A stretch of 56,673 bases of DNA, from the NCBI GenBank assembly GCA_017550025.1, contig JAFYLU010000031.1, positions 1 through 56,673 of the forward strand. Direction: 5' to 3'. A program made the translations under genes and the position numbers. The number at the start of each line of letters is the position of its first letter. The stretch's first letter is position 1. Below the pieces are notes generated by a model. That model was not told the DNA's origin, made no database searches, and worked only from the letters and a program-made list of their open reading frames with translations. The stretch is from Bacteroidales bacterium (GTDB lineage Bacteria; Bacteroidota; Bacteroidia; Bacteroidales; UBA932). Positions 4,654-56,262 of this stretch are shown here, piece after piece.

Positions 4654-4658
4654 AAACA

Positions 4659-4688: not shown

Positions 4689-4697
4689 TCAAAAAAG

Positions 4698-4728: not shown

Positions 4729-4744
4729 CAATCCCAAAATCAAA

Positions 4745-4783: not shown

Positions 4784-4807
4784 CACAAATTAAAATTGAA
4801 TACAGAA

Positions 4808-5179: not shown

Positions 5180-5193
5180 TTTAGCCGCATAAC

Positions 5194-5267: not shown

Positions 5268-5276
5268 CAAAGATTT

Positions 5277-5326
5277 AACCCATTGAAAATCAAGCATTTA
5301 AAAGCAGATTTCAATGGGTTTTTTCG
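5277..5326 (+). terminator. Rho-independent terminator after rplS/tRNA-Arg
   Basis: AACCCATTGAAA (5277-5288) pairs perfectly over 12 bases with TTTCAATGGGTT (5309-5320), followed by TTTT. The loop is about 20 bases. It closes the rplS-tRNA unit. Confidence 0.85.
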
Positions 5327-5435
5327 TACATTTCTGACCACGCGACACTTTTAAAAGTGTAAAGATCTTTGGCCTTGGCTGTGCTACTAAATGTGATCAC
5401 GCAAACATTATGGAAACATTACCTTACATTTTTTA

Positions 5436-7782: not shown

Positions 7783-7822
7783 AACCGTACCTTTTACATC
7801 CATATTTTAAAGTCAACATTTA

Positions 7823-37229: not shown

Positions 37230-37685
37230 CTACTCTACAGGGATGGATTCCACACGGACATATTTCTGAACAAATGACGGATCGTCTTTTGCAATCCAGT
37301 ACATTTCGTTCTTTGTAAGGTCTCTGATGATATACCTGTGCGCCCAATCTCCTGAATCATGATCGTAAACGCCCCTGATGATGGCTCCAAGTTCAGGATC
37401 TGTCTCGATATTGTAAGATCCTGTCACCACATGCGGTATATCAGAAAAACTGTCAAGGTTCTGATAGATCTTGTATGATCTGTCATTGCGCACTATCTCC
37501 AGGAAGACATATGTGCCGGCCTCGAGGGCACTACCGTTCCACTCGACAAGCTCCCACTTTCCAGAGATATTATTTGCATTGACATCAAGGTATTCCGGCA
37601 CAGGCTGCGACTGATCCTTGTTGTCGCATGAGATCAGGGCTGTGGCAGCCGCCAGAATCATCAATATTAAATTTCTAATCTTCAT
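37230..37685 (-). CDS. Lipocalin-like lipoprotein
   Basis: A 151-residue lipoprotein; the leader ends ALISC (Cys20). The mature part begins after a short linker with NNISGKWELVEWNG, a typical opening of Bacteroidetes lipocalin-like domains, and continues with alternating beta strands (TYVFLEIVRNDRSYKIYQ, HVVTGSYNIETD, NEMYWIAKDD). This predicts a small beta-barrel. Last of the nine-gene SusCD-protease operon, 18 bases after the DUF1573 gene. Ligand unknown. A role in binding peptides or a hydrophobic product is only a guess. Confidence 0.8.
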   Translation of the reverse strand: MKIRNLILMILAAATALISCDNKDQSQPVPEYLDVNANNISGKWELVEWNGSALEAGTYVFLEIVRNDRSYKIYQNLDSFSDIPHVVTGSYNIETDPELGAIIRGVYDHDSGDWAHRYIIRDLTKNEMYWIAKDDPSFVQKYVRVESIPVE

Positions 37686-37703
37686 ATAAATGTTTTTATT
37701 TTC

Positions 37704-38492
37704 TCACTGTTTTGCATCGTTTATGACGACTTTGACCGAAGAACGGCTCGGGGGCACTCCAAGGCCTTTGAGTATCACTACAGCATTCCTTTCAGCGCCT
37801 TCTGCCGACGGATCATATTTAATCACGATCTGTCCTTCTTGTCCTGGCTGAACGATTTCAGGATCACATCTGAAAGTCAGGGACTGCGGAAGAAATGATG
37901 TCTCACATTCAAGCTTCAAGTCCTTCGCTCCGAGATTGATGAAGCAGAGTCTTTCCACAGCTCTGACACCGGATCTGAACTCCACTACATCGTTTCGGAG
38001 TCTTATCGTCCCCATCTGGATCGGCCAGTCCAATGACATATCCGCACCATTATTCACTTCCACTGACAGCCTGAGCACTGCCGCGGGATCTTCATGTGCT
38101 TCCGTATAGACAAAGACCTTTCTCTCGAATCTGCCAGGATGTCCTTTGGGATTATACATAAGCTGTATCTCGCCCTTCTGTCCCGGCAAGATTTCCTTTG
38201 CCGATACCGTCGCTGTCATACAGGAACATGTCGTCACGATCCTTATCCCCTTCAGAGATTCCGAACCTGTATTTTCGAATCTGTAGACGAAACATTTCGG
38301 AGAATCGGCCTCATTCATAGGCTCCGCTACGATATGTCTTGTATCGAATCTCATGAATGAAGATTCTTCGGACAGGCGGGGATCAGCTACACTCTCTACC
38401 TTTTCACGAGGAATGATGCGCAGCTGACCGGATGCGGTGACACCTGCTGTCATCGCAAGTCCATATGCCAATATAAGTCCGAAAAGTCTCAT
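37704..38492 (-). CDS. DUF1573 domain protein
   Basis: A 262-residue exported protein with a signal peptide (cleavage near TASG, residues 20-22). The DUF1573 domain spans about 60-160 (FVYRFENTGSESLKGIRI, TTCSCMTATVS, ILPGQKGEIQLMYNPKGHPG), an immunoglobulin-like fold with a conserved Cys-Ser-Cys. A second, degenerate Ig-like module follows (RLCFINLGAKDLKLECE, IVQPGQEGQIVIKYDP). It lies 2 bases after the protease gene, so the two are translationally coupled, which suggests physical or functional partnership. No enzyme motif is seen. Confidence 0.85.
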   Translation of the reverse strand: MRLFGLILAYGLAMTAGVTASGQLRIIPREKVESVADPRLSEESSFMRFDTRHIVAEPMNEADSPKCFVYRFENTGSESLKGIRIVTTCSCMTATVSAKEILPGQKGEIQLMYNPKGHPGRFERKVFVYTEAHEDPAAVLRLSVEVNNGADMSLDWPIQMGTIRLRNDVVEFRSGVRAVERLCFINLGAKDLKLECETSFLPQSLTFRCDPEIVQPGQEGQIVIKYDPSAEGAERNAVVILKGLGVPPSRSSVKVVINDAKQ

Positions 38493-38494
38493 TT

Positions 38495-40522
38495 CTACAG
38501 CCAGCCGTTTCCGTTTGCAGATTCGCGTACGGTAATCACGAACTTGTCAGTCCTGCTGCCGGTAACCTCGGCTTCTGTCTGACCGGTCTTAAGACCTTTT
38601 ACAATCATCTTACCGTCAACTATTTCAGCTGTAGCCACAGATGTATCCGACACCTTGACACTAAATGATCTGCCATCCATATACATTGACGGAAGTGCTG
38701 TAGTCTGACCGCCGACAGCAACATAAAGATTAGGGAAGCTCATATCCCTGCCAGCACCGCTGACTGCGTCAAGAAGAGCCGCCGCATTGATCTGACCAGA
38801 TCCCATCTTTCCCTTGAAGCTGTTCAAGGAGAATGTCATCAAAGGCGACGAACCTTCCAGATCAATCACATACTTGCTGTATGTCTTTGTTCCTGTAAGA
38901 TAGCTGTCAATCGGTGTAGCTGTCTCATAAAGAAGAGCACGGAATTCGTCCGCCTTGAAATGTCTGCGCATCTTGGCTGCGTATGAAAGGCCGAGTGCTG
39001 CAACTCCAGAGACATGCGGACATGCCATTGAAGTTCCTTCCATATATCCATAACCGCTCTCGCTGACGTGTGTCGGAAGAGTAGAAAGGACACATCCGAT
39101 CTCACCAACCATGTGGTTATCATCCACATATTCATAGTAATAGTCCTGATCACCGCCTGGTGCAGAGATAGTCGTACCCGGGCCATAGTTGGTGTATACT
39201 GCAGGTGTGAAGTCACCTGCGGTAGCTGCAACAGCAACGAAATCAGGATATGCTCCAGGGTAGCTGGCAGCCGCAGCTGCCTCATTTCCGCCGGCAAAGA
39301 TTGCGAGACCTCCATCAATCACGCCATCTGGAGATCCGGCATTATGGATAAAGTAGTCAAGAGCCTTTCTTTCAAGTACATTATACGCCTCCCACTCCTC
39401 GTCTGTAGAGTACTGCGGAGTCCACTCGTATGGATTGGCTGCACCAGAAATATATCCCCAGCTGCACTGGAGAATGACAGCGCCATTGTCGGCCGCATAC
39501 TTGATGGCCCTGACTTCTTCGAGTACTGTTCCGGCATACATTCCGGAGAAGATCTGGCATGACATGATCTTCACGCCCGGCTCCGAAGGAGTACCGCCGG
39601 CAATCGAGCTGATACCGATGCCGTTATTGTTCGTTGCAGCTATGACACCTGCAACATGAGTTCCGTGACCGGTATCGTACCTGCTTTCAACAGTAATTAC
39701 ACCTGTCTTGCCGACAAAGTTATATCCATGTATATCTCCGGCATATCCGTTTCCGTCATTGTCTTCGTAAGAATTCCAGATCTCACCCTCATTCACCCAC
39801 ATGCTTGCCTTAAGATCTGGATGAAACACATCCACGCCTTCATCGAGTACGGCTACGATGATTGAAGGATCTCCCTTTGTAATGTTCCATGCGTCCTTCA
39901 CATTGACATCAGCGCCCTGAACGAACTTGGTCGGACGGAGGTTGCCGTCATTGACCAGATGCCACTGATCCGGAAGAAGAGGATCGTTGAATGCAGCTGA
40001 TGCAGTCCTGCCTGCCAGTTCATTGATCTTGTCCATCGTAAGCGGAACCGCCTTCGAGTCAGATGCCCTTTTGAGTGTACGGTTATATTCCACTCTGCTC
40101 ACCTCTCCGAGCTTTGAAAGGTCTGCAGCGACCTTCTCTACAGAATGGTCTTCACTGAAGCGCACTACATACCAAAGGTGCAGCCCTTCCTGACGTGCCT
40201 TCTCTTCCGAACGGACATCTACAGGGAAAACTCTCTCTATCTGGTATCCGTCGACCAGTTCCAGTATCTCATCCACGCCGAGCACTCCGGAGCGGGTCAT
40301 CGGAGCAGACGGACCGCTCTTTGTCAGACCTGCCTTATCCAGGATATCGCTCACTCGCGCATCAAAGCGTACGAGGAGCTGACCGTCAAGGACATCAGCA
40401 GACATCTGCGGAAGCTGGTGTTCATCAGAAGGGAGGGATGCATCAGGTCCCTCGACCGAGCAGGAAATCAATCCTGCAGCCAGAGCCGATGCCAGCACAT
40501 ATATTATTTTTTTCATATCCAT
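38495..40522 (-). CDS. Subtilisin-like S8 serine protease, lipoprotein
   Basis: A 675-residue surface or periplasmic protease. The lipoprotein leader ends GLISC (Cys21). Residues 48-150 look like an inhibitor-type prodomain (QLLVRFDARVSD, WYVVRFSEDHSVEKVAADLS). The catalytic domain has Asp227 (VAVLDEGVD), His286 (GHGTHVAG), Asn413 in the oxyanion hole (FAGGNE) and Ser498 (GTSMACPHVSG), so all active-site residues are present. The C-terminus (about 600-665) is a BIG2-like Ig domain. The start overlaps the upstream LRR stop (TAATG), which favours 40522 over a second ATG at 40516. It is the only degradative enzyme in the SusCD operon, which points to proteins or peptides as the substrate. Confidence 0.95.
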   Translation of the reverse strand: MDMKKIIYVLASALAAGLISCSVEGPDASLPSDEHQLPQMSADVLDGQLLVRFDARVSDILDKAGLTKSGPSAPMTRSGVLGVDEILELVDGYQIERVFPVDVRSEEKARQEGLHLWYVVRFSEDHSVEKVAADLSKLGEVSRVEYNRTLKRASDSKAVPLTMDKINELAGRTASAAFNDPLLPDQWHLVNDGNLRPTKFVQGADVNVKDAWNITKGDPSIIVAVLDEGVDVFHPDLKASMWVNEGEIWNSYEDNDGNGYAGDIHGYNFVGKTGVITVESRYDTGHGTHVAGVIAATNNNGIGISSIAGGTPSEPGVKIMSCQIFSGMYAGTVLEEVRAIKYAADNGAVILQCSWGYISGAANPYEWTPQYSTDEEWEAYNVLERKALDYFIHNAGSPDGVIDGGLAIFAGGNEAAAAASYPGAYPDFVAVAATAGDFTPAVYTNYGPGTTISAPGGDQDYYYEYVDDNHMVGEIGCVLSTLPTHVSESGYGYMEGTSMACPHVSGVAALGLSYAAKMRRHFKADEFRALLYETATPIDSYLTGTKTYSKYVIDLEGSSPLMTFSLNSFKGKMGSGQINAAALLDAVSGAGRDMSFPNLYVAVGGQTTALPSMYMDGRSFSVKVSDTSVATAEIVDGKMIVKGLKTGQTEAEVTGSRTDKFVITVRESANGNGWL

Positions 40523-42171
40523 TATTCCTCTGATCTGTTATTAGGATTGTATTTCTTATTCTTGTAATGATGATAATAGTAGTCAAGGCTCACCGGCTCA
40601 TTGCTGAATCCTGCACTTTCACCATCCTTTGTCTTACCTTCCTGCGAGAACACAAGCGAGTAAGGATACCAGAGGTCAAGCTTAGGATGGTAAAGGAGCC
40701 AGTCCGGAAGTTCTCCCGTAAGACGGTTGAAGTTTATCGCAAAGAATTGTGTAGTCGGAAGTACCTTTGGAAGACCGATCAGAATCTCCGGCAAGGTATC
40801 GCACGCATGGACCTCTTCAGCTGTCCATTTCTCATGGTTGGACATTGTCGGAAGCGATCCGTGAAGATAGTTGACAGAGAGCCTGAGGGTATCCAGCTTG
40901 TTCCATCTGAGTATTCTTTCAGGGAAGTTATTCTCATCGACAAGACCGCCGATATTCTCTCTCGTATCATTTGCCATGTCATAAATGGTATATCGCTGGT
41001 TGGCGTTCATGACAAGGGCATGAAGATTCGGGAAGTTCTCCGGTGTAAGGATATCAGGAATTGTCTGGAAACAGTTCGAGCTGAGGTCGAGATATTCCAG
41101 ATTCTTCAGATTCTTGAAATCAGGGTGAAGGCTTGTCAAACCGTATGCTCCGATTGTAAGTCTCTTCAGATTAGTAAGCTTTGTAATGTGCTCTCCTGTA
41201 CCGAGGCTGCAAAGGAAGTGGTTTGCATTCGAGTAGATTACAATCTCTTCTGCAGCTGTAAGGTTCTGGATTTCAAAAGGTATTTCTTCCTTTGTCTTGA
41301 ACATGAAGAACTGAACATACTTCACTCGACCGACCATATCATCAGGCACGCCGGGACCCTTCTTCCAGACCTTGACATTATTCCAATGCTCCATCCTTTC
41401 AGATGTTTCCCATTCAGTATATATGTTCAAGGCACGGCTGATTGCAAGAAGTGAGAGGGAGTCTCCCTGCGGAGTGCCAACCGGAATCGGAAGGGCTGCC
41501 TTCTGAACTATCTTCATGCCTGCCGTAGCATCCATTCCAACGCTTTCGCGTGGTCTGAATTCCACTTCAGCGATACGCTCTGTATCGCGTGTATTGATCT
41601 TCCAGTCAAACCTCACGACAGTAGTGCGAGGTCTGCGTATTGTAAAGCCGTCCTCGCCTTCTGTGCTCGGAAGATCCAGAGTATCAAGCTTGTATGAGAG
41701 CCATTTTTCCGCACCTTCAGGCAGTACCACATCAAACTTAACGTTTGACTTCACCTTCACAGTGAAGAATCTTGAGTCATAGGCAGCAAATTCCTCGATA
41801 TCCACCTGTGTCTTTTCCGGCTTGATCTGGAAGTCAAATCCGGCCTGACTTACGGTAAAGTCCTTCTTCTCACCTGTCTCAAGATTCTGGATTCGGACAA
41901 TAGCCGAACGAGAGTCAGTGACGAGGGCAGAATCGACATTCACGGCACACTCCACGGTACCTCTTCCGTTTGCTGGAGAAACAGAAATCCATGGAGCATC
42001 AGTGATTACAACCCAGTTTCCTGAAGAGCTTACATTGATATTTCTTACACCTCCGGCAGGGCCGATCTCAATTGTAGAGGCATCCACTCCGAATTCCACT
42101 TCCGGAGTCTGTACGCATGCCACGGCAAGAGTCATGGCAACTGCGGCATATATGATTCTATTGATTTTCAT
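40522..42171 (-). CDS. BACON and leucine-rich-repeat lipoprotein
   Basis: A 549-residue lipoprotein; the leader ends LAVAC (Cys19). Residues 25-115 are a BACON domain (TIEIGPAGGVRNINVSSSGN, DAPWISVSPANGRG, IVRIQNLETG). A second BACON-like module spans about 115-215. From about 290 the protein carries leucine-rich repeats (LTNLKRLTIGAYGLTSL, LKNLEYLDLSSNCFQTIP, LDTLRLSVNYLHGSLP) and ends with a capping segment. No enzyme motif; a binding or scaffold role is likely. It is between the larger LRR protein and the protease, sharing one base with the protease start. Two LRR lipoproteins side by side in a SusCD operon is unusual. Confidence 0.88.
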   Translation of the reverse strand: MKINRIIYAAVAMTLAVACVQTPEVEFGVDASTIEIGPAGGVRNINVSSSGNWVVITDAPWISVSPANGRGTVECAVNVDSALVTDSRSAIVRIQNLETGEKKDFTVSQAGFDFQIKPEKTQVDIEEFAAYDSRFFTVKVKSNVKFDVVLPEGAEKWLSYKLDTLDLPSTEGEDGFTIRRPRTTVVRFDWKINTRDTERIAEVEFRPRESVGMDATAGMKIVQKAALPIPVGTPQGDSLSLLAISRALNIYTEWETSERMEHWNNVKVWKKGPGVPDDMVGRVKYVQFFMFKTKEEIPFEIQNLTAAEEIVIYSNANHFLCSLGTGEHITKLTNLKRLTIGAYGLTSLHPDFKNLKNLEYLDLSSNCFQTIPDILTPENFPNLHALVMNANQRYTIYDMANDTRENIGGLVDENNFPERILRWNKLDTLRLSVNYLHGSLPTMSNHEKWTAEEVHACDTLPEILIGLPKVLPTTQFFAINFNRLTGELPDWLLYHPKLDLWYPYSLVFSQEGKTKDGESAGFSNEPVSLDYYYHHYKNKKYNPNNRSEE

Positions 42172-42189
42172 TTTCGCATCCTCCTTCGG

Positions 42190-44814
42190 TTAATTCAACA
42201 TGATGTCACAATTCCTGATGTTCTGCGTCTTGTCATATATGAGGATATATGCACCCACCTGATATGCATAGCAGATGTCAGACGCGTCAAACACGATGTT
42301 CGGGTTATCGCTGATGTCAAGATAGTAGCAGAGGGTAGAGATAGTATCATCGATCTTGCCGAGGTTGTTGGAACCGATATAGAATCCACGCAGACCTCTG
42401 TGCTGATAGATACCCTCCGGCCAATCAGAAAGACATCTTTCACCGTTGGCATCACGCTGTCCTCTTATGGCAAAGACTGTAAGATACTGGCTGTCGAGAG
42501 GTTCCCATGGGAATGTCGAGAACTGATTATATGAAAGCTCGATTCCATAAAGATACGGCAGGTTTCCGGCATGCATCTCCCACGGAAGGTCCTTGAGGTC
42601 ATTGTAGGAGAAGTCAAACGAAGCAAGATGGATTGCATTCTCGTAATCGAAAGAGCCTTCAGGTATCTCGTTGATGTTACATCCTCTGAAATTGATGTTC
42701 ATGACCTTCGAGTTCGATTTTGCGAGCTCAACAGGATACTTTGTAAATTCCGGATTGTTCGCAATTGTCAAGGTCTCCACATACACACCACGGAAATCTT
42801 CAGGGAATGAAGAAATGTGATTGTAAGAGAAGTCGATAGACACAATAGCATACAATGATTCCGCATCAAAGATATTAGGGAACTGGGTGAACTTGTTGTT
42901 TCTGACAGAGAATGTCTCGGCATCCTCCATATAGCAGAACACCCCTGTCTCATCAACCGGGAATTCAGAAAGCTGGTTATTGTCAAAATATATCTGAACA
43001 GGCTTGATCACATTTCCCCATGCCTCCTCGATAGTATGGATCTTGTTTGATGAGAAGTCGATCATACCGAGCTTCTTCATGTTCTTGATTTCTTTCGGAA
43101 CAACCTCGAGATTGTTCTCATTGAAATAGATGATCTGAAGCTTTTCTCTTGAAGGTCCTGTAGCAAGTCCCTTGAAGCCCTTGAGAACCTCTTCCGAACT
43201 CCACTGTCTGTTGTTTGCAAGATTTACAAGTGCAAGTTCAGGCATCCTGGTGAGAGCCATAGGGAATTCCTTCATCTTCGGACAGTTGTAGATCTCCACA
43301 TCTGTACATGAACGGAGATTTGCAATCTCTTCAGGCAAGGTCTCGATCTCGCTGTTTGCGATAAAGAGCTGCTCAAGGTTGGTAAGATTGCCGATTTCCT
43401 TCGGAAGGCTCTTGAGACCGTTGTTGATCTTACCTGAAATCATATCCTTCGGCTGGATTCTCATCTTTCCTGTACCGAACTCAATGATCTCGTCTTCCTG
43501 CATAGTCTCATAGAGAGCCATCTCCGGAATGGATATGCCATTCTCTGCCAAAGCTCTCGCGATAGGTTCTGAGACCTGGGTAACCCTATGTACTTCACGA
43601 AGATACTCCGAATGTCTCTCCATACGCCTTGCTGTTCCCTTGCCGTTCGGCACAGTAGGGTCATATCCGGTCAAGTTACCATCATTATGATTACCAAGGT
43701 AGAGCTCGACAAGGGCAGTAAGCTGACCGATAGCTGGTGACATATGTCCGTAGAATCCGAAGTCACTGATGTTGACCATCGCCACACGGCCATTCGAATG
43801 AAGTGAGATTCCAGGCTGGTCTCCCCAGAGATCCGGATCCTTGTTGAAGTCCCAGTTACATCCTTTCGGATGATCCTCACCGATATAATACCAGTTCTCT
43901 CCGTTCAGAGACTTCCATATCTCATAAAGGGCATAATAGTCCTTGATATAGTCATCGCTTTCGTGAAGCTTGACAGGAATATCCGCATCCGTTGTCTTGT
44001 TGTCCTCCACTACAAAGACAGGGGAATTAACCTTCGTATTGGTTTCAAGAAGCTTCTTTCCGTCATCAAAGACACTGTAGCTCACGACCTTGTACTCACC
44101 GGCAGGCAGCGAAAGAAGCGTGTCACACGCACATGTCGAAGTCTGATATCCGTCTTCCACATCATCTGTATCGCGGAAATGGATATCGAAATCGGCAGGG
44201 AGATTCTCGAATACAGTGGTTGAGTTTCCTGTCCTGACCGAAACTGTCACATACGCAATCTCATCAAAGGTATATACTCTTTCAGCTGCCTTTGTCTGCG
44301 GCATATCCTTGAATTCGGACATATCCTTGACTACGGTAAACCTTACCTTACCTCTCTCACGGACATCCGCAAGCAGGTCATGAACACAAAGTCCGCCGGG
44401 AACCACCGTAAACGAAGCCAGGCTTCCTTCAGGCATGTCTGCATCATAAACAGACTTGTCGAACTTATCGAGAAGGGTATACTTGATCACCTGATAATCT
44501 CCTGCAAGAAGCTTGAGCTTGTCGCTTCGAAGACCGAATTCAGCTGTCTCTGCATTGAAAGAGTTCACGACAAGAGTCTGGGTGATACGCTCATTCTCGA
44601 AAGACAGGGTGACTTTAATCTTGGACACATCTCCAAGATATTCCAGCATCGCAGCCTTCGTACCAGGATAAGATGCCTTCTTGTACAGCTTGAACTGAAC
44701 ATATCCGTACTCATGGTCACGATAATCCGGCTCTTCCACCTCAACACAGCCTGTAAAGGCCAGGGCAGAGAGCATGGACACAATCCATAAAACGGAAAAT
44801 TTTAAAATTCTCAT
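42190..44814 (-). CDS. Large leucine-rich-repeat lipoprotein (DUF4458-like N-terminus)
   Basis: An 874-residue lipoprotein; the leader ends AFTGC (Cys23). Residues 30-290 hold two related beta-rich modules (LLAGDYQVIKYTLLDKFDK and LPAGEYKVVSYSVFDDGKK mark the same point in each), resembling DUF4458. A segment with WKSLNGENWYYIGED and CNWDFNKDPDLWGDQPG resembles the N-cap of plant-type LRR domains. About a dozen LRRs follow to residue 830, for example LTNLEQLFIANSEIETLP and LGMIDFSSNKIHTIEE. The long concave surface suggests binding of an extended polymer or a protein partner. Function is unknown. Gap to the next gene is 18 bases. Confidence 0.85.
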   Translation of the reverse strand: MRILKFSVLWIVSMLSALAFTGCVEVEEPDYRDHEYGYVQFKLYKKASYPGTKAAMLEYLGDVSKIKVTLSFENERITQTLVVNSFNAETAEFGLRSDKLKLLAGDYQVIKYTLLDKFDKSVYDADMPEGSLASFTVVPGGLCVHDLLADVRERGKVRFTVVKDMSEFKDMPQTKAAERVYTFDEIAYVTVSVRTGNSTTVFENLPADFDIHFRDTDDVEDGYQTSTCACDTLLSLPAGEYKVVSYSVFDDGKKLLETNTKVNSPVFVVEDNKTTDADIPVKLHESDDYIKDYYALYEIWKSLNGENWYYIGEDHPKGCNWDFNKDPDLWGDQPGISLHSNGRVAMVNISDFGFYGHMSPAIGQLTALVELYLGNHNDGNLTGYDPTVPNGKGTARRMERHSEYLREVHRVTQVSEPIARALAENGISIPEMALYETMQEDEIIEFGTGKMRIQPKDMISGKINNGLKSLPKEIGNLTNLEQLFIANSEIETLPEEIANLRSCTDVEIYNCPKMKEFPMALTRMPELALVNLANNRQWSSEEVLKGFKGLATGPSREKLQIIYFNENNLEVVPKEIKNMKKLGMIDFSSNKIHTIEEAWGNVIKPVQIYFDNNQLSEFPVDETGVFCYMEDAETFSVRNNKFTQFPNIFDAESLYAIVSIDFSYNHISSFPEDFRGVYVETLTIANNPEFTKYPVELAKSNSKVMNINFRGCNINEIPEGSFDYENAIHLASFDFSYNDLKDLPWEMHAGNLPYLYGIELSYNQFSTFPWEPLDSQYLTVFAIRGQRDANGERCLSDWPEGIYQHRGLRGFYIGSNNLGKIDDTISTLCYYLDISDNPNIVFDASDICYAYQVGAYILIYDKTQNIRNCDIMLN

Positions 44815-44850
44815 ATATATTACTTTTCTATTTCAATACAGGTTCTACTT

Positions 44851-47232
44851 CTACTCGGTAAGGTCAAGAGTGCAGACAAGAGCCAGAACGACATTGTTGT
44901 CACTGTTATAGAACAGGATATTTCCCTGCTCATAGTCAGACTCCGAGCCTTCAGGAGGGTACATGTAGATATCCACACCACCGTCAAGGAATTCAAACTT
45001 TCCTACTGTTTCATCATAGTTAAGGCCGTTTACCACGAACTGGTTACGCTTCACATATGGATTAGGAGCATACATCACAGCCGTTGTAGGGATAGAAATA
45101 CGGAAAGGCATTCCGGTCATTCTGTAGGTCAGGTGATAGATAGGGGCGCTATACTCCTTATATGCATCATAAAGGGTCTTGTCACTTTGTTCGGTAACCT
45201 CGACAAGAGTGGTTCCCAACATTTCCGCATACATTGCAGACTCACCTATGAGTTCAATCTTGACCTCCGCCTCTATCACCTGCGAAGGATCAAATATCGC
45301 CTCTACTATCGCCAATGTCTTGCCCTCAGCATCATAGAACACTACGAATCCTGTAGATGCTTCTGACGGAACCTCCTCGACATCCTTATACATATCAAGG
45401 ATTCCGCTTGAATGATGCTCGGTAAGGTCAGAGTAGCGAAGCCAGAAGCTGCTGTCGCCTGTAACTTCATTTGTTCTTGTCGAATCGAATATCTTATAAG
45501 AAGTATAAGGAACTGCAAAGAACATTGTAGCCTTATCTCTTGCATAGATATTATTATAAGTGAGGTTATAGACATAATCAGTCTCACCGAACGAGTTCTG
45601 ATAACGCTTCTTCTTCGAACCTGTGATCTCGCTGAAAAGAGCACCGGCAGCAAGGAGTTCATTTTCTGTAGCAGACATTGTCACATAAGGCATATCGGTT
45701 CCGTACTGGATGACAGGGACAGCATACTGCATGTACTCATCCCTCACAGCGTCACCAGCCTCATTGAAGAGCTGACTGCGGTCCGACCAATCGTTTCCGT
45801 TATTGAAGAACAGGTAAGCCTGCCTGATTGCACCGGTGTTCTGGCTGACAGTAACAGTAAGAGTCCTGGTCTGAAGCACATCGGCGCCTGTAGCCGTATC
45901 AAATGCAGAAAGTTCAATCTGAAGCCAGTCTGGACCTGCGGTATTGTTGACAGGCTTGCCGTCAACTACCTCCACTGCAAAGACACTCATATCCTTGTCT
46001 CCGAAAATATATCCGGTAGCCTTGACATCAATATATCCGGTCGCTGTCCTGAGGTTGCCAAGATAATTATAGTCAAGCTCGGCAAGCTGCATATCCATGC
46101 TGTGATATGCCAGATCACGACATCCCGGGATAGCGAGATCAAACTCATATATAGTCTCACCTTCATAAACGAACTTAACCTTGGCAGATGCATCTTCGAG
46201 AGGATATTTTGAAGATAGCGCCTGAAGATTGAATTCCAGCACACCTGCTGTTGCGTCACCTACTTCGAGATTGAGCCATTCAGGTCCTTCAAGAGTCCAG
46301 TTGCATTTCGAGTCTACATGGAGAGGAAGTCTGAAATCAGAACCTGTCCAGATAAGAGATGCCTCTGTAACACTCTCTTCTGTATAAAGATAACCGCTGC
46401 CAGTCTCACTGAACATGAACTCGTTATTATCATCCACCTGTGCGGCAAGCACAGAAAACTCGCGGCACGAAGGAAGAGTCACGTCAATTTCCTTTATGAC
46501 ATTGCCGGCATCCGCTCCGTCCTTCACCTTGAACAAAATCTTGCCGGTCTGCTCATCAAGTGATGTACCGGTGAGCACGATGTCAACAAGTCCTATAAGA
46601 CTTTCTGCAGGAATATCTGTATAAAGCCAGTCAGGGAGTTCCATATCCCATTCGCAATTCGACTCTATTCTCAAAGGCATCCTGAAATCCTTGTCGGCAG
46701 CAGACCAGACAAGCTCTACAGCTGAAGCCTTATCAGTGCTGAAGGAATAACCTTCCTCTTCATTTCCTACAAACGCGCCTTCTTCGATCTGGGCAAGATA
46801 GACTTCAAGATCCCTTTCTTTTCCCGGACGCATATACTTCGCGATAACCTTTGACTCGCCTCCCATTTCAAGAGTCACCTCACATGAAAGATTATCAAAC
46901 TCATCACCGTCATAGACAGCTATATCTATAGAAACAGTCTCCTTCTGACCTGCTGCCGCAACCTTGCCGGACACCTTGTCGACCTGGATGGAATTATCAT
47001 CGATCCAGAACCACTTGAGAGTCTTCACGGGGACTGAAACAGTCCAGTCCATGTTAGCCTCGAAGGTCAATGTAACAGTGCTGCCTGGAGCGAGATCATA
47101 CTTTTCTACGACTTCAGGGAACTCCGGTGTAATTACAACCTTTGGTTCAGGGCCACATGATACGGCTGCCATAGAGATGAGTGCCAATGAGACAGCTGCA
47201 GACCTTATTATATTACTGATTTTCATAATCAT
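44851..47232 (-). CDS. Lipoprotein with repeated BACON-like modules
   Basis: A 793-residue lipoprotein; the leader ends AAVSC (Cys26). The N-terminal half has at least three BACON-like Ig modules marked by the same landmark: ANMDWTVSVP, SNCEWDMELPDWLYTD and SKCNWTLEGPEWLNLE; a divergent fourth holds GPDWLQIELSAF. The second and third modules share a Cys before the Trp and another in a closing PSCRE/PGCRD motif, suggesting a disulphide per module. The C-terminal half (about 490-793) is a separate beta-rich domain with no family I can name. Its position after SusD and the DUF4984-like gene fits a surface lipoprotein that joins the SusCD complex. Gap to the next gene is 36 bases. Confidence 0.82.
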   Translation of the reverse strand: MIMKISNIIRSAAVSLALISMAAVSCGPEPKVVITPEFPEVVEKYDLAPGSTVTLTFEANMDWTVSVPVKTLKWFWIDDNSIQVDKVSGKVAAAGQKETVSIDIAVYDGDEFDNLSCEVTLEMGGESKVIAKYMRPGKERDLEVYLAQIEEGAFVGNEEEGYSFSTDKASAVELVWSAADKDFRMPLRIESNCEWDMELPDWLYTDIPAESLIGLVDIVLTGTSLDEQTGKILFKVKDGADAGNVIKEIDVTLPSCREFSVLAAQVDDNNEFMFSETGSGYLYTEESVTEASLIWTGSDFRLPLHVDSKCNWTLEGPEWLNLEVGDATAGVLEFNLQALSSKYPLEDASAKVKFVYEGETIYEFDLAIPGCRDLAYHSMDMQLAELDYNYLGNLRTATGYIDVKATGYIFGDKDMSVFAVEVVDGKPVNNTAGPDWLQIELSAFDTATGADVLQTRTLTVTVSQNTGAIRQAYLFFNNGNDWSDRSQLFNEAGDAVRDEYMQYAVPVIQYGTDMPYVTMSATENELLAAGALFSEITGSKKKRYQNSFGETDYVYNLTYNNIYARDKATMFFAVPYTSYKIFDSTRTNEVTGDSSFWLRYSDLTEHHSSGILDMYKDVEEVPSEASTGFVVFYDAEGKTLAIVEAIFDPSQVIEAEVKIELIGESAMYAEMLGTTLVEVTEQSDKTLYDAYKEYSAPIYHLTYRMTGMPFRISIPTTAVMYAPNPYVKRNQFVVNGLNYDETVGKFEFLDGGVDIYMYPPEGSESDYEQGNILFYNSDNNVVLALVCTLDLTE

Positions 47233-47248
47233 TATTGTTTAAGTCGTT

Positions 47249-48151
47249 TTACATTCCTTCTCTCTTAAGGCGCTCTGCCTCTTCATCGCTTACCCATTCC
47301 ATGACATTATAGAAATGGCCGACTGTTCCGACAGATACTCCGAGATTCTCCACATACATTTCAGTCCATATGTAAAGGTAGTTGCCGCATGGATAGAAAA
47401 TTGAATCATATAGAGCACTGTTGGTGACGAGAATCTTGTTGTCGCCATGGGCTGTTCCGAAAAACGATCCCTCATCACTTGCGACCTGATCAGGGTCCAT
47501 TGTAACGAAAGGTTTCATCGGATCTTCCGGGTTGAACTTCATTGTGACATCATAGCCGTCATTGATCCAGTCACGGCAGATGATCGTGTTCTCTTCCGTA
47601 GGATGCTTTTCAGTGTAGACAAGCTTCTGATATGAACCTGTCACACTATACTGATAGAGGAACATCGATGTAAGCACGCAATAACCTGTGAAGTTGTTGA
47701 TGTCGAAAGGACAACACTTCATGAGTACCGCCTTTGTCGTTTTTCCATAAAGAGGCATCTCAAGCTTTTCGTTCATCACAAGCTGGAGAGTAAATCCGAG
47801 GGAATCGCTTGCCTCGATGTTGTCATATTCGCCATGGACAAGAACATCTGCACGTGTCTCACCGGCCTTGATAGTGATGGTGTTGGACTGGAGACTGTAA
47901 TGATGATTCTCGATGGCATTGCTTCCGGCATCGATGATCTCCACTCCGAATGTACGGTCATAATCTCTGACTACTGTCGAAACGACAGGGATGCTGAAAT
48001 ACTCCACATCCTTCTGAACCGGATATGTCGCCATTGTATCAGCAAACATGACATATTCGGCATCGGAATATGTGACATATCTTTCCTGACAGCCGGCCAA
48101 AGCTCCTGCTGCAAGAAACGCTGCTGCAATATATTTCAAAATCTGCTTCAT
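47249..48151 (-). CDS. SusCD-associated lipoprotein (DUF4843/DUF4984-like)
   Basis: A 300-residue lipoprotein using the ATG at 48151, so the signal peptide begins MKQILKYIAAAFLAAG and ends ALAGC (Cys20); the longer frame would overlap SusD. The N-terminal half (YVMFADTMATYPV, YFSIPVVSTVVRDYDRTFGV, HHYSLQSNTITIKAGETRAD) is a Calx-beta-like DUF4843 fold. The C-terminal half (FTGYCVLTSMF, GSYQKLVYTEK, NLGVSVGTVGHFY) fits DUF4984. Such genes regularly follow susD. I recall that Bacteroides thetaiotaomicron BT2261-BT2264 has two extra surface lipoproteins next to a peptide-binding SusCD pair, and this gene occupies the equivalent position. Confidence 0.85.
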   Translation of the reverse strand: MKQILKYIAAAFLAAGALAGCQERYVTYSDAEYVMFADTMATYPVQKDVEYFSIPVVSTVVRDYDRTFGVEIIDAGSNAIENHHYSLQSNTITIKAGETRADVLVHGEYDNIEASDSLGFTLQLVMNEKLEMPLYGKTTKAVLMKCCPFDINNFTGYCVLTSMFLYQYSVTGSYQKLVYTEKHPTEENTIICRDWINDGYDVTMKFNPEDPMKPFVTMDPDQVASDEGSFFGTAHGDNKILVTNSALYDSIFYPCGNYLYIWTEMYVENLGVSVGTVGHFYNVMEWVSDEEAERLKREGM

Positions 48152-48161
48152 ATATCTATGT

Positions 48162-49703
48162 TTATCTGTTACTTTCATTAGGCTGGACCTGTGAACCCGG
48201 AGATATTATCTCATGATTAGGGATAGGCCATACGAATAGAGGGTCGCCGGCGGCAATCTTGAGCGAGCTTCCTTCAGACTGGGTCATTGACTGAGGAGTT
48301 CTCTCGAAACCTCTTCCCCAACGCTTCAGGTCATTGAGACGGAAACCTTCCATATAAAGCTCACGAACGCGTTCGTCTGAAACAGTATCAAGCCAGTTAG
48401 ACGCATTGACTGAAGTGTTTCCTCCCGAAGTATGTCTTGCCTGTCTCAATGTCGTAAGGTCAGCGGAAGCTGCAGACCAGTTCGCCTTCCTGCAATATGC
48501 CTCTGCACGGATGAGATACTGCTCTGCAAGTCGCATAGGCTTCGGCATATTCACATGATAGATCATATTCTGCATAAGTCCCTCATTACCAAAATACTTG
48601 ATAAGAAGAGGCCATGTCAGCTGGTGCGAATATCCTGTCTGTGCCTGGGCAAAATATGCTCCGTACCTCATATCATTGGATGCATAGAGGTTCAGGGCCC
48701 ATTCAGCAGGTACATAATCAGGGTAATAATAGTAGTAGTCAGTAGTGAAATTAAGGAAGACCGATCCCTGTGCTCCACCGTAAGAAGTAGAAGTATAGCC
48801 GATTCTCCATATATTCTCGAATGATGCATCGTTGGTCCACATCCAGTCGATGTATGAATAGGTCTTTGCTGCACCTGTGATAGGGCTTACCTGAGTCGTA
48901 TATGCAGATGTTGTTGCAAGAGCGAATGCATCTGAATCGATGAGGGCAGTCGAATGCCTGATCGCCTCATCCCAATCCTGCATATACAGAGCCACTCTCG
49001 CATGGATCGCATGCGCTGCCGCATGAGTGAAATATGCAGAATCGAAATAATCATTCTCCTCATCGAGCATATCCTCGGCCTTCTTCAGGTCATTGATAAC
49101 AAACTCGTAGGATTCCTTGAGGCTCGCACGCTTTGCAGGCTTCTCACCGAAATATGTATCTGCGAGAACCACTCCAAGCTCATCAGCTGCAGTCGCAGGA
49201 TCATAAGCCTTGCAGAAGCACTTGATAAGCTCCGAGTAAGCCAATGCACGTGCACAATATACCTCTCCGGTATAGTAGTCGAGGTACTGTATTTCCTCGT
49301 CATCTGTGAGGGTGTTCCTCAACTCCTCCACCTGGTCAAGATAGAAGTTACATAATCCTATCACTCTGTAGAGTGCGGCATAGACAGCCTCTACCTCGGA
49401 ATTGGTAGACCTGATGTCCCAGAGCCAGATATTACCGAATGTGTTGGAATTTCCCTGTACCGCATATACCAGGTCTGACTGGATATCCGGACAAAGGGTA
49501 AGATAGCCGCTGTAAAGGGCACTGCTCATATATGCGGAATAGATACCGGTAAGAGTCTGCTCCGCATCAGAGAAGGTCTTCATCGCCTCACCTTCCGGAA
49601 TATAATCTCCCGGAATCTTCTCGAGGCAGGATGCAAGACTGAAGGAAACGGCAATGAATGCCGCCAGCTTCATTATTTTCATATATATATTCTTCATCAT
49701 CAT
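48162..49703 (-). CDS. susD: SusD/RagB family nutrient-binding lipoprotein
   Basis: Surface lipoprotein that caps the SusC barrel and captures ligand. The 513-residue protein has a lipoprotein leader ending SLASC (Cys26). TPR-like helices carry typical SusD segments: FSDAEQTLTGIYSAYMSSALY, CNFYLDQVEEL, GEVYCARALAYSELIKCFCK, AHAIHARVALYMQDWDEAI, RLAEQYLIRAEAYCRKANW, LDTVSDERVRELYMEGFRLNDLKRWG and the terminal FVWPIPNHEI. It starts 6 bases after the SusC stop; a second start at 49682 is possible. Given the operon content the ligand is more likely peptide than glycan. The symbol denotes the family, not starch use. Confidence 0.95.
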   Translation of the reverse strand: MMMKNIYMKIMKLAAFIAVSFSLASCLEKIPGDYIPEGEAMKTFSDAEQTLTGIYSAYMSSALYSGYLTLCPDIQSDLVYAVQGNSNTFGNIWLWDIRSTNSEVEAVYAALYRVIGLCNFYLDQVEELRNTLTDDEEIQYLDYYTGEVYCARALAYSELIKCFCKAYDPATAADELGVVLADTYFGEKPAKRASLKESYEFVINDLKKAEDMLDEENDYFDSAYFTHAAAHAIHARVALYMQDWDEAIRHSTALIDSDAFALATTSAYTTQVSPITGAAKTYSYIDWMWTNDASFENIWRIGYTSTSYGGAQGSVFLNFTTDYYYYYPDYVPAEWALNLYASNDMRYGAYFAQAQTGYSHQLTWPLLIKYFGNEGLMQNMIYHVNMPKPMRLAEQYLIRAEAYCRKANWSAASADLTTLRQARHTSGGNTSVNASNWLDTVSDERVRELYMEGFRLNDLKRWGRGFERTPQSMTQSEGSSLKIAAGDPLFVWPIPNHEIISPGSQVQPNESNR

Positions 49704-49709
49704 CTTTCT

Positions 49710-52655
49710 TTAGAACATAAGGTCAAGTCCGAAGGTATACTGACGCGACATCGGGTACTGTGCCGCGTAGACATTTGACACGCCTTCCGGATCGAGACCC
49801 GAGAAGTTGGTGAAGGTCAAGAGGTTCTGTCCCTGTGCATATACTCTCAATCCTCTGATGAATCCGCTCTTCTTCAAGAGGCCGGAAGGAAGATTATATG
49901 AAAGCATCAGGTTCTTAAGGCGGAGGAACGAAGCATCCTCGAGGAGCCTGCTGTCAAATTCCGTATAGACGCCATGACGAGGTATGTCTGTCACATCACC
50001 CGGCTTCTTCCACCTGTCGAGGAGTCTGCGCGACTGGTTGTATGTCATGAAACGACCGTTGGACTCGTCGAAATAACGGTCATTGTTTATCATCCAGCGG
50101 TCACCCACCCAGCTGAACTGGGCGCTGAGGCTGAGTCCCTTCCATGAAAGTGCAGTACCGAATCCGCCCTGCCATGGAGCATGGTAAGATTTACCAACAA
50201 GTACCTTATCCTCGTCACGGAGTTCGTTTGTAATGTTTCCGTCCTTGTCATACCAGAGAGCATCTCCGTTTGAAGGATTCACACCGGCATAGCGGTTGAT
50301 GTAGAACTCTCCGACAGGATGTCCAACCACGAGCTTTGTACTTGTGTTGGATGTCTCATATTCTGTGACGCCGTTATAAAGTTCAGTGAGTCTGTTGTGG
50401 TTATATCCGACATTGACATTCACATTCCACATGAAGTCGCGGACCTGAAGAAGTGTAGCATTTACAGCAAGTTCCACACCCTTGTTCACCATAGCACCTA
50501 CATTTGACCACTTGTATCCGTAACCGTTCGACTGTGAATACGCGAGAGGCACAGACATGAGCATGTCAGAAGTCTTCTTGTTGTAAAGTTCGAGATCGAC
50601 ATTGAGTCTGTTCCAGAAACCGAAATGGAAGGCGAGGTTGGTAGTCCATGTATTCTCCCATGTGAGGTCCTCGTTACCCGGCTGAATAGGGGCAACACCT
50701 GCATCGCCCACATAGTCAGAACCACCTCCAACCAAGGCAAGGTGCTCATAATTAGGGATTTCAGAGTTTCCTGAAGTACCTGAACTGAATGCTATCTGTG
50801 CATTTGTAAGCCAGTCGCGGTATGAAGACATGAATCCTTCATTACGAAGATTCCACATGAAACCGACAGCTCCGAACATACCCCAGCGGTTGTTCTTTCC
50901 GAATCGTGACGATCCGTCTGTTCGGAGAGAGACTTCAGCATAATAACGGTCCGCGAAGTTATACTCGGCACGGCCGAAGAAAGATACACGCGAATAGTCC
51001 GAATCAGATGTGCTTGACCATGATGTAGCTCTGGTACCAGTCGAAATGTCTGTAAGCTTCGAGTTGGTCTGTCCTGCAGTCTTAACGCTGAAGGCCTCCA
51101 TGTGATAATCCTGCCACTCGTGTCCGAGGAGGAAATTGAAATCATGGATATTGTCAATATTGAACCTGTAGGTCAACGTGTTGGTAAGATGGAGGCCAAG
51201 GCCGTCCGAAGAACTTCTTGCAGCAGAACCTTCTCCCTGGTTAGGAAGATACTCCGGATAAGACTGGCTGAAACCGGTCGTGTGAGAGAAGTCGACAGCA
51301 AACTGTGACCTGAACACAAGATTCTTGTACAGAGAAAGTTCCGCAAATACTGTGGAAATCATCTTGTACTTCTTGTATGAAAGCGGATTGTTGGCAAGCC
51401 ACTCGAGAGGATTCTGTCCCTGACCTGTCCATGTACCGTCGTTGATGGAAGCGAGGGTTCCGTCCGCCTTGTAAGGATTATAATAAGGGAGCATGAAGCG
51501 GGCTGCAGAGATTGGAGTGACAAGAGTATATGCTCCTTCGTCAGCCTGCTTGATATTCTGGAAGTTCAACATGGTGTTTGTTCCCATCTTGAGCCACTTC
51601 GCCATCTGCTGCTCGAAATTGAATCGCATCGAATAGCGTGTGAACTCTGAACCTGGAGCAATACCTTCCTGATCGTAGTATCCGCCAGAAAAATAATAGT
51701 TTGTAGTCTCTGTAGCACCGGAAACGGAAAGTTCATGACTCTGGAGCATTGCGGAATCATTGAACACCACATCCATCCAGTTCACATCAGTCTTTGACAG
51801 GTAATCATAGTTCTGTCCTGCTGTAAGTCCCAGTTCCTTCTCATACTGGATACGCTCTGCCGTATTCATAAGGTCCCAGTTTCCATGAGCCATCGCCGAC
51901 CAACCCATCTGCATGCGATAATTGACATTCGGACGATCCATATTACGGCCTCGCTTTGTTGTGATCACGATCACACCATTGGCCGCACGGGCTCCGTATA
52001 TCGAAGTCGAGGATGCATCCTTGAGGATCGACATGCTCTCGATATCGGCAGGGTTAATGGTATTGAAGTCGGATGCAGATATCGCTACTCCATCAAGAAT
52101 ATAGAGCGGGGATGTGCCTGAATTGATCGAGTTCGTACCACGGATGGTCATTGTAGCAGATGCACTTGGCTCACCTGTGCTTGAAAGGACTGTCAGACCT
52201 GCAACCTGACCCTGGAGAGCCTGGTCAAAAGCTGCTGTAGGTGTAGTCTCAAGCTTTTCAGACTTGACTGTAGATACCGAGCCAGCAACAGTTCCTTTCT
52301 TACGGACACCGTAAGCGATGACCACAGCATCATCAAGGTTCATGGCTTCTGTCTGCATTACCACATTATAGGTAAATGTCTCGACAGAAGGAACGACAAC
52401 CTTGTCATCCAGAAAACCGATGCTGGAGAATGTCAGTTCCGTACCAGGAGTGACATATATCTCATAATCTCCATCAATTGATGTGATTACGCCATTGCCT
52501 GGTCCTGCCATCACGGCTACGCCTATCAGCGGAAGGCCGTCATCAGCAGATGTTACAACTCCGCTTACCTTGACAGAAGTCTGCGCGAAGGCAGCCCCCC
52601 AGAAAAGGATCAGCGACAAAGTCGTAAGAATCAGTTTTAAACAATTTTTCATCAA
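49710..52655 (-). CDS. susC: SusC/RagA family TonB-dependent outer-membrane transporter
   Basis: A 981-residue outer-membrane importer powered by TonB. The signal peptide ends AFA-Q (about residue 24). A carboxypeptidase-regulatory-like domain follows (VKVSGVVTSADDGLPLIGVAV), then the TonB box/plug start (DDAVVIAYGVRKKGTVAGSVS) and the plug motifs GQVAGL, IRGTNSINSGTSPLYILDGV and SILKDASSTSIYGARAANGV, then the 22-strand barrel ending MSRQYTFGLDLMF. There is no STN domain, so it should not signal through an ECF sigma/anti-sigma pair. First gene of the nine-gene operon, under a near-consensus promoter, with susD 6 bases downstream. Confidence 0.96.
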   Translation of the reverse strand: MMKNCLKLILTTLSLILFWGAAFAQTSVKVSGVVTSADDGLPLIGVAVMAGPGNGVITSIDGDYEIYVTPGTELTFSSIGFLDDKVVVPSVETFTYNVVMQTEAMNLDDAVVIAYGVRKKGTVAGSVSTVKSEKLETTPTAAFDQALQGQVAGLTVLSSTGEPSASATMTIRGTNSINSGTSPLYILDGVAISASDFNTINPADIESMSILKDASSTSIYGARAANGVIVITTKRGRNMDRPNVNYRMQMGWSAMAHGNWDLMNTAERIQYEKELGLTAGQNYDYLSKTDVNWMDVVFNDSAMLQSHELSVSGATETTNYYFSGGYYDQEGIAPGSEFTRYSMRFNFEQQMAKWLKMGTNTMLNFQNIKQADEGAYTLVTPISAARFMLPYYNPYKADGTLASINDGTWTGQGQNPLEWLANNPLSYKKYKMISTVFAELSLYKNLVFRSQFAVDFSHTTGFSQSYPEYLPNQGEGSAARSSSDGLGLHLTNTLTYRFNIDNIHDFNFLLGHEWQDYHMEAFSVKTAGQTNSKLTDISTGTRATSWSSTSDSDYSRVSFFGRAEYNFADRYYAEVSLRTDGSSRFGKNNRWGMFGAVGFMWNLRNEGFMSSYRDWLTNAQIAFSSGTSGNSEIPNYEHLALVGGGSDYVGDAGVAPIQPGNEDLTWENTWTTNLAFHFGFWNRLNVDLELYNKKTSDMLMSVPLAYSQSNGYGYKWSNVGAMVNKGVELAVNATLLQVRDFMWNVNVNVGYNHNRLTELYNGVTEYETSNTSTKLVVGHPVGEFYINRYAGVNPSNGDALWYDKDGNITNELRDEDKVLVGKSYHAPWQGGFGTALSWKGLSLSAQFSWVGDRWMINNDRYFDESNGRFMTYNQSRRLLDRWKKPGDVTDIPRHGVYTEFDSRLLEDASFLRLKNLMLSYNLPSGLLKKSGFIRGLRVYAQGQNLLTFTNFSGLDPEGVSNVYAAQYPMSRQYTFGLDLMF

Positions 52656-52683
52656 ATATTCTTTCTATAATTTTCTAAACTTG

Positions 52684-52714
52684 CAAAAATACTTAATTTT
52701 CACCACTAATCAAA
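52684..52714 (-). promoter_or_regulatory. Promoter of the susCD-protease operon
   Basis: On the minus strand TTTG (52714-52711) and TATTTTTG (52691-52684) are separated by 19 bases, a close match to the Bacteroidetes consensus. The -7 box is 29 bases before the SusC start codon. A complete core promoter suggests fairly constitutive or repressor-controlled expression. Confidence 0.7.
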
Positions 52715-55159: not shown

Positions 55160-56262
55160 TGCAATTCGAATTCTACGATGTTCTTGATTCCTGGAAGTCC
55201 GTAATAGGCCTCCACCACATCACCTTTAAGACAAACCTTTCTTCCTAGCAGAGAAGGGTTATCGACAAGATTCAGAGCATCGCGGGCTGCACCTGCCGCA
55301 AGCTGGACAGACAGACACGAAGACCTTGAAGACACATTCGAACGAGGTCCCAGCAACAGATTAGTGCGGGAAGAAAACGGCTTTTCAAACGAAGCGGATG
55401 ACGACGACAAGTCACCGCCGACAATATGTCCGCACACCCAGACCCCCTCTTCTCCGACAGCCGACATAGCCTCCGAAACAGTCAGGGCATCATACACACC
55501 GCCACCTTTATCCGTGCCTCCGATGACATAGGTATCAGACACCCAGTTTCTGGATGTATCCACAGCAACAGAGACCTTCCCCGAACTTCCTTGGGCGACA
55601 TTTCCAGCAGAAGAGACCTCAACCTTCAGCTCAAGTACTTCCTGGGCATTCAGCTCCCTTGTCATAAGCACATGATCCTTACCATTGTCGTTAAGCACAA
55701 GGGAGACACCTCCCGGCTTGAAGTAAGCCACCCTCTTTTCCGAATACCCATATACAAGTCTGCCCGCTGGCGACTTCAGAAGCAGCACCCCTTCGGGATA
55801 GGCATCCAGAAAGGTCGAAGCAATCTTGAGTCTGATTCCGGCATTAATCTGCCGGCAGACCAGCTTCAGGTCCACCACACCACCGGCAGGTATCATGACG
55901 CATTGCTCATCACCAAACTGCGGTGCTGAAAAGGCCGGCTTTACAAATTCTTCCGAAACCACACTGACAACATAATTGCCGGACTGCAGGCTCATGGATT
56001 CGGGAGAATCACCATAGGCTCCTTCATATATGACACGTCCATCAGAATCCTTCACCGTCAGAATGAAATCCGAAGTATCAGGGACAGCAAGGCCGGCCTT
56101 TGTAAGGAGGTCCTGCTCTCGGGAAAATGCAATACGAAGTTCACCCGTCCCGATATCCTGCTGAATCCCAAGCATATTGCAGGACATGAAGACATACAAC
56201 GCCACCGGCAACAGAATGGTCCGAAGCCATGAATCTGGCAAAATGATAAAAGATTTGCTCAT
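55156..56262 (-). CDS. DUF4493 plus DUF6359 lipoprotein
   Basis: A 368-residue lipoprotein; the leader ends VFMSC (Cys28). The first part (about 38-235) matches DUF4493: GTGELRIAFS, DTSDFILTVKDSDG, MSLQSGNYVVSVVSEE and RQINAGIRLKI. From about 255 a second domain starts LTVSEAMSAVGEEGVWVCGH with VGGDLS, SVQLAAG, LNLVDNPSLLGRKVCLKGDV and YYGLPGIKNI, which fits the OB-like DUF6359. The fimbriae-type N-terminus with an OB-like C-terminus suggests a surface-displayed binding protein. A GGAGAAA ribosome-binding site precedes the ATG at 56262. It overlaps the next gene by 4 bases. Confidence 0.82.
   Translation of the reverse strand: MSKSFIILPDSWLRTILLPVALYVFMSCNMLGIQQDIGTGELRIAFSREQDLLTKAGLAVPDTSDFILTVKDSDGRVIYEGAYGDSPESMSLQSGNYVVSVVSEEFVKPAFSAPQFGDEQCVMIPAGGVVDLKLVCRQINAGIRLKIASTFLDAYPEGVLLLKSPAGRLVYGYSEKRVAYFKPGGVSLVLNDNGKDHVLMTRELNAQEVLELKVEVSSAGNVAQGSSGKVSVAVDTSRNWVSDTYVIGGTDKGGGVYDALTVSEAMSAVGEEGVWVCGHIVGGDLSSSSASFEKPFSSRTNLLLGPRSNVSSRSSCLSVQLAAGAARDALNLVDNPSLLGRKVCLKGDVVEAYYGLPGIKNIVEFELQ

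Follow-up and report, generated by a model that had tools for sequence, protein, structure and literature searches.

A nine-gene SusCD operon with a coupled subtilase in Bacteroidales, a probable protein-utilisation locus built on the PUL plan

The window, a DNA stretch of 56,673 nucleotides, is one contig (C29) of a 2.62 Mb draft genome of a Bacteroidales bacterium (121 contigs, 83.5% complete). On its minus strand, between positions 37230 and 52652, lie nine co-oriented genes, some of them overlapping and none separated by more than 36 bases, whose products were assigned with Pfam and NCBIfam profiles (Table 1). In order they encode SusC, SusD, a DUF4984 protein, a BACON-repeat protein, a DUF4458/LRR protein, a BACON/LRR protein, an S8 subtilase, a DUF1573 protein and a lipocalin-like lipoprotein. 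The original prediction, made from the letters of the window, had placed nine minus-strand genes of these families, no gap exceeding 36 bases, after a single promoter and given every product a signal peptide. All nine open reading frames were recovered in place and on that strand, each family was found by Pfam or NCBIfam (the BACON-repeat and lipocalin-like proteins below cut-off), and inspection by eye located Sec-type signals on the SusC and DUF1573 proteins and a lipobox cysteine on the other seven.

Table 1. Promoter and genes of the operon, with positions in the window.
Feature	Position	Strand	Evidence
Promoter, TTTG-N19-TATTTTTG	52684..52714	-	Exact fit to Bacteroidota consensus
SusC, RagA-like TonB-dependent transporter, 980 aa	49710..52652	-	TIGR04056, 789 bits; RagA top PDB match
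SusD lipoprotein	48162..49703	-	PF07980, PF14322
DUF4984 lipoprotein	47249..48151	-	PF16372, E 6e-45
BACON-repeat lipoprotein	44851..47232	-	PF13004, 24.1 bits against a cut-off of 25, just below
LRR lipoprotein (gene 5), two DUF4458 stretches + LRR_10 + LRR	42190..44814	-	Pfam
BACON + LRR lipoprotein	40522..42171	-	PF13004, PF12799, PF13855, above cut-off
S8 subtilase lipoprotein, C-terminal GWL	38495..40522	-	Peptidase_S8_N + Peptidase_S8
DUF1573 protein, Sec-type signal, without lipobox	37704..38492	-	PF07610, E 7e-22
Lipocalin-like lipoprotein, last gene	37230..37685	-	Lipocalin_4, 16.7 against a cut-off of 22.4, below

The reading as one operon is supported, with a single Bacteroidota-type promoter ahead of susC. 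The consensus used to call it, which we take to be TTTG-N19-TAnnTTTG, fits three sites in the window on both strands together, that of the operon included. By eye, the TAnnTTTG -7 element was also seen upstream of susC in 8 of 9 other loci with the architecture of the window operon (type I below) and was absent from the ninth (L151). A scan for sigma-70-type promoters and terminators was rejected: it gave 24 promoter-like sites against 25.1 in shuffles, hence no excess, and 12 terminator-like sites against 9.6. Downstream, the operon is flanked by a convergent CitMHS transporter gene; upstream, the adjoining gene pair (52838-56262) encodes DUF4906+Big_2 and DUF4493+DUF6359 products, with the promoter region between the pair and susC. 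The window further holds a xylan-type cluster (7823-31467) with two GH31, xylose-isomerase-like, FGGY kinase, alpha-L-arabinofuranosidase, GH10, transketolase, acetylesterase-like, MFS sugar transporter and GH67 genes.

Regarding the individual products, the SusC start was set at the ATG at 52652, the open reading frame list having a TTG start one codon earlier, and for the DUF4984 lipoprotein the ATG at 48178 is the first possible start and that at 48151 the likely one. The N-terminal part of the latter protein is DUF4843-like by a weak match to PF16132, below cut-off. Residues 33-871 of the product of gene 5 match PDB entry 4ecn (E 7e-146), which is presumably BT_0210. In a check of ortholog patterns, acidic residues commonly followed the lipid cysteine on the BACON, LRR, S8 and lipocalin proteins but not on SusD and DUF4984, which suggests that the former group is displayed on the cell surface. 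The lipobox pattern occurred in just 4 of 58 DUF1573 orthologs, and the DUF1573 protein is probably periplasmic.

None of the nine products matched a CAZyme family in Pfam or NCBIfam, which bears out the predicted lack of carbohydrate-active enzymes, and the largest intergenic gap in 41 complete loci of this type was 232 bases, so nothing sizeable is inserted there. Of the features by which a PUL is recognised, the operon thus has adjacent susC and susD genes and lacks a carbohydrate-active enzyme in the locus. This lack is a real contrast, because other SusC neighbourhoods of the same genome do match glycosidase families: among the 48 proteins scanned downstream of 17 other SusCs (of 49, one reaching the stretch end being dropped, and the type II locus being left out), GH18-like, alpha-amylase, GH97, GH3, GH2 and SusE were among the 25 of 50 families listed. 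Furthermore, for 86 proteins downstream of orthologous operons, the 25 most frequent of 79 Pfam families included no glycosidase.

A search with the S8 protein over genome contigs returned 80 loci, from which L115-L134, belonging to other phyla or distant Bacteroidota, were left out as matches to S8 alone. L055-L114 come from Bacteroidales, Bacteroidia, Rikenellaceae, Alistipes and Bacteroides (L104-L106), and five of them (L107, L109-L112) hold no orthologs of the operon; it does occur in Alistipes muris DSM 112343 (L086). Genes found on the S8 strand followed the window order in 70 of 70 stretches, short and duplicate ones included. Removal of four duplicates, of L171 (type II) and of L151, a second copy from the window's own genome, left 64 ortholog loci, 41 of which carry all nine genes in window order, a strongly positive outcome of the proposed neighbourhood check for SusC with an S8 protease and an LRR gene. 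In 18 of the 23 incomplete loci the stretch breaks off at most 250 bases from an outermost gene found, and L177 has 841 bases remaining beyond its genes. In L104-L106 the BACON slot is filled by a protein of 501-502 aa without a match to our queries, and a Pfam scan of the L104 protein gave no match. The true exception is L080, with S8-DUF1573-lipocalin alone despite 5.4 kb of upstream sequence being present; there (2137-8639) the three-gene tail is divergent from a 1007-aa open reading frame with a signal peptide and weak likeness to a SusC N-terminus. Two further complete loci were found, in G429 and in G322, a genome of another family. The nine-gene arrangement is therefore real and beyond chance.

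The distance matrices of the nine proteins agree, and some members change faster than others. The S8 distance matrix correlated with those of the other eight proteins at r 0.78-0.89 and none of 500 permutations reached such values, with shared descent explaining much of this. Median p-distances across the 41 complete loci were 0.23 for SusC (often compared over the C-terminal part only), 0.40 for SusD, 0.43 for S8, 0.44 for DUF4984, 0.46 and 0.50 for the LRR proteins, 0.57 for the lipocalin, 0.69 for DUF1573 and 0.74 for the BACON repeat, the fastest-changing member. A conserved transporter combined with an outer binding protein that changes fast would be consistent with cargo of one kind taken from a changing source.

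The linkage of subtilases to SusCD pairs extends beyond this operon. Within the genus, Peptidase_S8_N is present in 46 of 61 genomes, and the contexts of its matches were surveyed except for two at contig ends. A home-made S8 profile yielded 96 subtilases at 250 bits or more, 68 with at least 8.3 kb of upstream sequence; a same-strand SusD lay within 8.3 kb upstream of 53 of these 68 and an opposite-strand SusD of none, against a chance expectation of about 3.3% calculated from 21 SusCs in the genome, while 15 had no SusD upstream. A binomial figure for this excess takes no account of relatedness and is no true probability. Three architectures carry the link. Type I is the window operon, type II reads SusC-SusD-protein of about 840 aa-S8-lipocalin, and type III consists of SusC, SusD, a protein of about 280 to 300 aa, sometimes extra genes, an S8 of about 870 aa and then a protein of about 280 to 320 aa. 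The data support a genetic tie between the protease and the SusCD pair. One type III locus (L160, 5061-13992) encodes a RagA-like SusC, SusD and a subtilase of 874 aa, behind which comes a protein weakly predicted to lie in the outer membrane; this long S8, the one scanned, gave DUF3244 and Por secretion tail matches, both below cut-off.

An alignment of 21 homologues (18 of type I, one of type II and two of type III) shows no variation at residues D227, H286, S498 and N413 of the S8 protein; from subtilase motifs we take the first three to be the catalytic triad and the fourth the oxyanion asparagine. The enzyme, described as intact in the original prediction, is accordingly predicted to be catalytically competent. 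No T9SS sorting domain was found in it, neither Por_Secre_tail nor DUF3244 matching at E 0.1, and it ends in GWL.

The SusCD-LRR part of the operon also occurs without the protease. Among 393 genomes of the order, the LRR gene is matched over nearly its whole length (>250 bits) in only seven, four of them also with S8 (G000, G061, G429, G322) and three (G114, G218 and G157, two of one genus) with SusC-SusD-DUF4984-LRR-LRR and no S8 match in the stretch examined; for G114, Pfam identifies the BACON-slot protein as BACON, and a further LRR protein follows it. The core is therefore not bound to the S8 protease, and these core-only loci contradict a view of the LRR and BACON proteins as obligate protease partners. 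The same genome bin holds two more copies of the first genes of the operon, both cut by contig ends, at 2249-13088 of L151 (contig C9) and 1-3201 of L250 (contig C53), with SusCs 90% and 81% identical to that of the window; these may be paralogues or bin contamination (6.4%).

The SusC of the window is nearer to RagA than to the glycan transporters. In the PDB it matched RagA best (575 bits), then the dextran SusC (8aa4, 364 bits) and the levan SusC (5t3r, 297 bits), and BT2264 gave 130 bits, the lowest among the long SusC chains matched. As a control, the SusCs of the genome were set against barrel regions from RagA and the dextran SusC, one repeat row and one 170-aa fragment being left out. 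The three type I SusCs of the genome scored 409, 406 and 376 bits against the RagA barrel at 37% identity, whereas the other 18 of 21 distinct SusCs reached at most 223 bits and 28% identity. The dextran reference is shorter than the RagA one, which leaves RagA/dextran ratios unbalanced, and in that unbalanced comparison the type II SusC of the genome scored 212 against RagA and 147 against dextran SusC. Searched against the full PDB, one type II SusC (L044) was slightly closer to the dextran SusC (347 bits) than to RagA (322 bits), so that a SusCD pair beside a subtilase need not have a RagA-like SusC; the single type III SusC so searched was RagA-like (611 against 384 bits). Judged by these matches, the window SusC is RagA-like and likely a peptide importer, with oligopeptides as its presumptive cargo.

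The original prediction had compared the operon to Bacteroides thetaiotaomicron BT2261-2264, a locus with two extra lipoproteins and, to our knowledge, no protease. Both are SusCD pairs, and for the B. thetaiotaomicron one an oligopeptide-bound structure is described in PMC7782687. With its distant SusC, however, BT2261-2264 was ruled out as the closest relative, and the likeness is instead to RagAB of Porphyromonas gingivalis, RagA being the nearest solved SusC. Gingipain genes are located away from ragAB, which has, as far as we know, no LRR, BACON, DUF4984 or lipocalin partners. The resemblance does not extend evenly to SusD, which matches RagB weakly (52 bits) and 3kez best (81 bits). In that proteolytic species RagAB imports gingipain-cleaved peptides, according to a passage of PMC11817032.

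The set is apparently already annotated, by gene families, in the model organism B. thetaiotaomicron. A table in PMC10434189 gives BT0207-08 as RagB/SusD and DUF4984 and BT0211-13 as BACON, S8 serine peptidase and DUF1573; if BT0206 is slot 1, the region BT0206-BT0214 agrees with the window at slots 2, 3, 6, 7 and 8, that is 5 of 9 slots in the right spacing, compared by published product names alone. In the open-licence literature, no paper on the function of the nine-gene set was found among the matches listed, none of the matches listed for BT_0210 by name was related, and the main text of PMC10994844 leaves BT0206, BT0207, BT0210, BT0212 and BT0214 unmentioned. Adjacency of SusD and peptidase genes in general is already in print: in Zunongwangia profunda 12 of 19 TonB receptor/SusD operons adjoin glycosyl hydrolases or peptidases, and the passages on them in PMC2864250 describe no LRR/BACON/S8 nine-gene set. 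The operon is no peculiarity of the window, being widespread in Bacteroidales and, by gene families, apparently present in B. thetaiotaomicron.

Taken together, we regard the operon as a protein-utilisation locus built on the PUL plan, with protein foraging the most likely reading and a fairly probable one, given that SusC resembles RagA, that the subtilase-SusCD linkage recurs and that CAZymes are absent. In such a machine the lipoproteins would sit on the cell surface grouped around SusCD, the BACON and LRR proteins would hold a polypeptide substrate and the S8 lipoprotein would cut it, after which SusD would close over the oligopeptides and the RagA-like SusC would import them with TonB. 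The DUF1573 protein would act in the periplasm, and the lipocalin-like lipoprotein may be a dedicated S8 partner, perhaps restraining the protease. The protein-foraging machine proposed originally is partly upheld, in its operon, its lack of CAZymes and the tie of S8 to a SusCD pair, whose SusC is RagA-like; its peptide import and its LRR/BACON substrate binding are conjectural, and the core occurs in three genomes with no S8 match in the stretch examined. The plan recalls the levan and dextran utilisomes of B. thetaiotaomicron, in which SusC2D2 is joined by surface lipoproteins and a hydrolase, as reported in part of PMC7618045. Both loci encode SusCD, a hydrolase and lipoproteins of the cell surface (predicted ones in the window), but the utilisome enzyme is a glycoside hydrolase and that of the window a subtilase.

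The protease could instead open a glycoprotein, with SusCD importing glycopeptides or glycans and the glycosidases encoded elsewhere in the genome. Precedents exist in passages of PMC11992087, where a mucin peptidase, BT4244-M60L, shares the B. thetaiotaomicron PUL BT4240-50 with glycosidases and where BACON is proposed as a carbohydrate-binding module by the title of a cited reference. Glycan or glycoprotein foraging nevertheless seems unlikely here, given an operon that lacks a CAZyme and whose gaps are too short to take an inserted gene across the 41 complete loci, the glycosidase-free commonest families of the downstream flanks, and a RagA-like SusC. Improbable, too, is a role outside feeding, in which S8 would be a processing or defensive surface protease, the LRR proteins adhesins and SusCD an importer of a cofactor or metal carrier. 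The core without S8 and S8 without the core would both agree with it, as would data in PMC10434189 that show a P. intermedia cluster, listed as PorV/PorQ, S8 peptidase and BACON, 7.8- to 11.3-fold higher in iron depletion. The same source gives BT0207-08 and BT0211-13 as lower in iron depletion with P 0.084-0.57 and 0.152-0.241, respectively, and since these values are not significant, iron regulation of the B. thetaiotaomicron genes was rejected; the S8-SusCD linkage in three architectures and the RagA likeness of SusC also speak against such a role. That SusCD-LRR and S8-DUF1573-lipocalin are two systems sharing a transcript by chance is very improbable: each half exists alone (L080; L153, L154, L155), but L080 is the sole locus of 64 with ample upstream sequence and no SusCD-LRR half, and intergenic gaps are near zero.

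If protein foraging is indeed its function, an on-board protease replaces the glycosidase in the SusCD plan, and the locus also offers a candidate new protease-partner pair. Glycan loci are well known in Bacteroidota, whereas matching self-contained protein loci are much less worked out, and as the strict-order set occurs in many Bacteroidales, Alistipes muris DSM 112343 and apparently B. thetaiotaomicron, the proposal is testable by standard genetics.

The steadiest partner of S8 may be the last gene of the operon, encoding the lipocalin-like lipoprotein. The window S8 ends in Gly-Trp-Leu (38498-38506), as do 51 of 55 complete S8 orthologs and 45 of 50 complete census subtilases shorter than 740 aa; out of 40 complete longer ones, a single protein has this end and 30 end in VK plus one residue. 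A lipocalin-like gene lies within 1.5 kb downstream of 40 of 48 subtilases that end in GWL or one of its near variants (GWF, AWL, GWM) but of only 1 of 40 others, the lipocalin profiles having been seeded with lipoproteins from beside S8 genes, some of them within this count, and the GWL and non-GWL subtilases looking like two clades, such that the contrast may reflect one old event. Type I and type II lipocalin-like lipoproteins are homologous (hhalign 99.6%). Because of this following of GWL-type subtilases, the sequences suggest a dedicated protease partner, possibly an inhibitor, the latter since small lipoproteins co-encoded with KLIKK proteases of Tannerella forsythia (mirolase included) are said in a passage of PMC7296668, citing unpublished data, to inhibit them. 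The solved relatives of the window S8 include mirolase. In both systems a protease is co-encoded with a small lipoprotein, but potempins precede their protease and the window lipoprotein follows it. Potempin homology of the last gene was not found: a PDB profile search with the lipocalin-like protein gave 2mhd as best match (E 0.009) and no chain labelled potempin. A bolder, rather doubtful idea is that the GWL subtilase and its downstream lipocalin form a conserved pair that is plugged into type I and type II SusCD systems and also occurs free of SusCD, the lipocalin being a cognate inhibitor or chaperone that would recognise the GWL tail or the active site and silence the protease until SusCD docking. 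The S8-lipocalin pairing was also found at genes unlinked to SusCD (L005, L046 and L169). At 6063-15812 of L046, without a same-strand SusD upstream, three S8-like genes lie close together, two of them on either side of a lipocalin-like gene.
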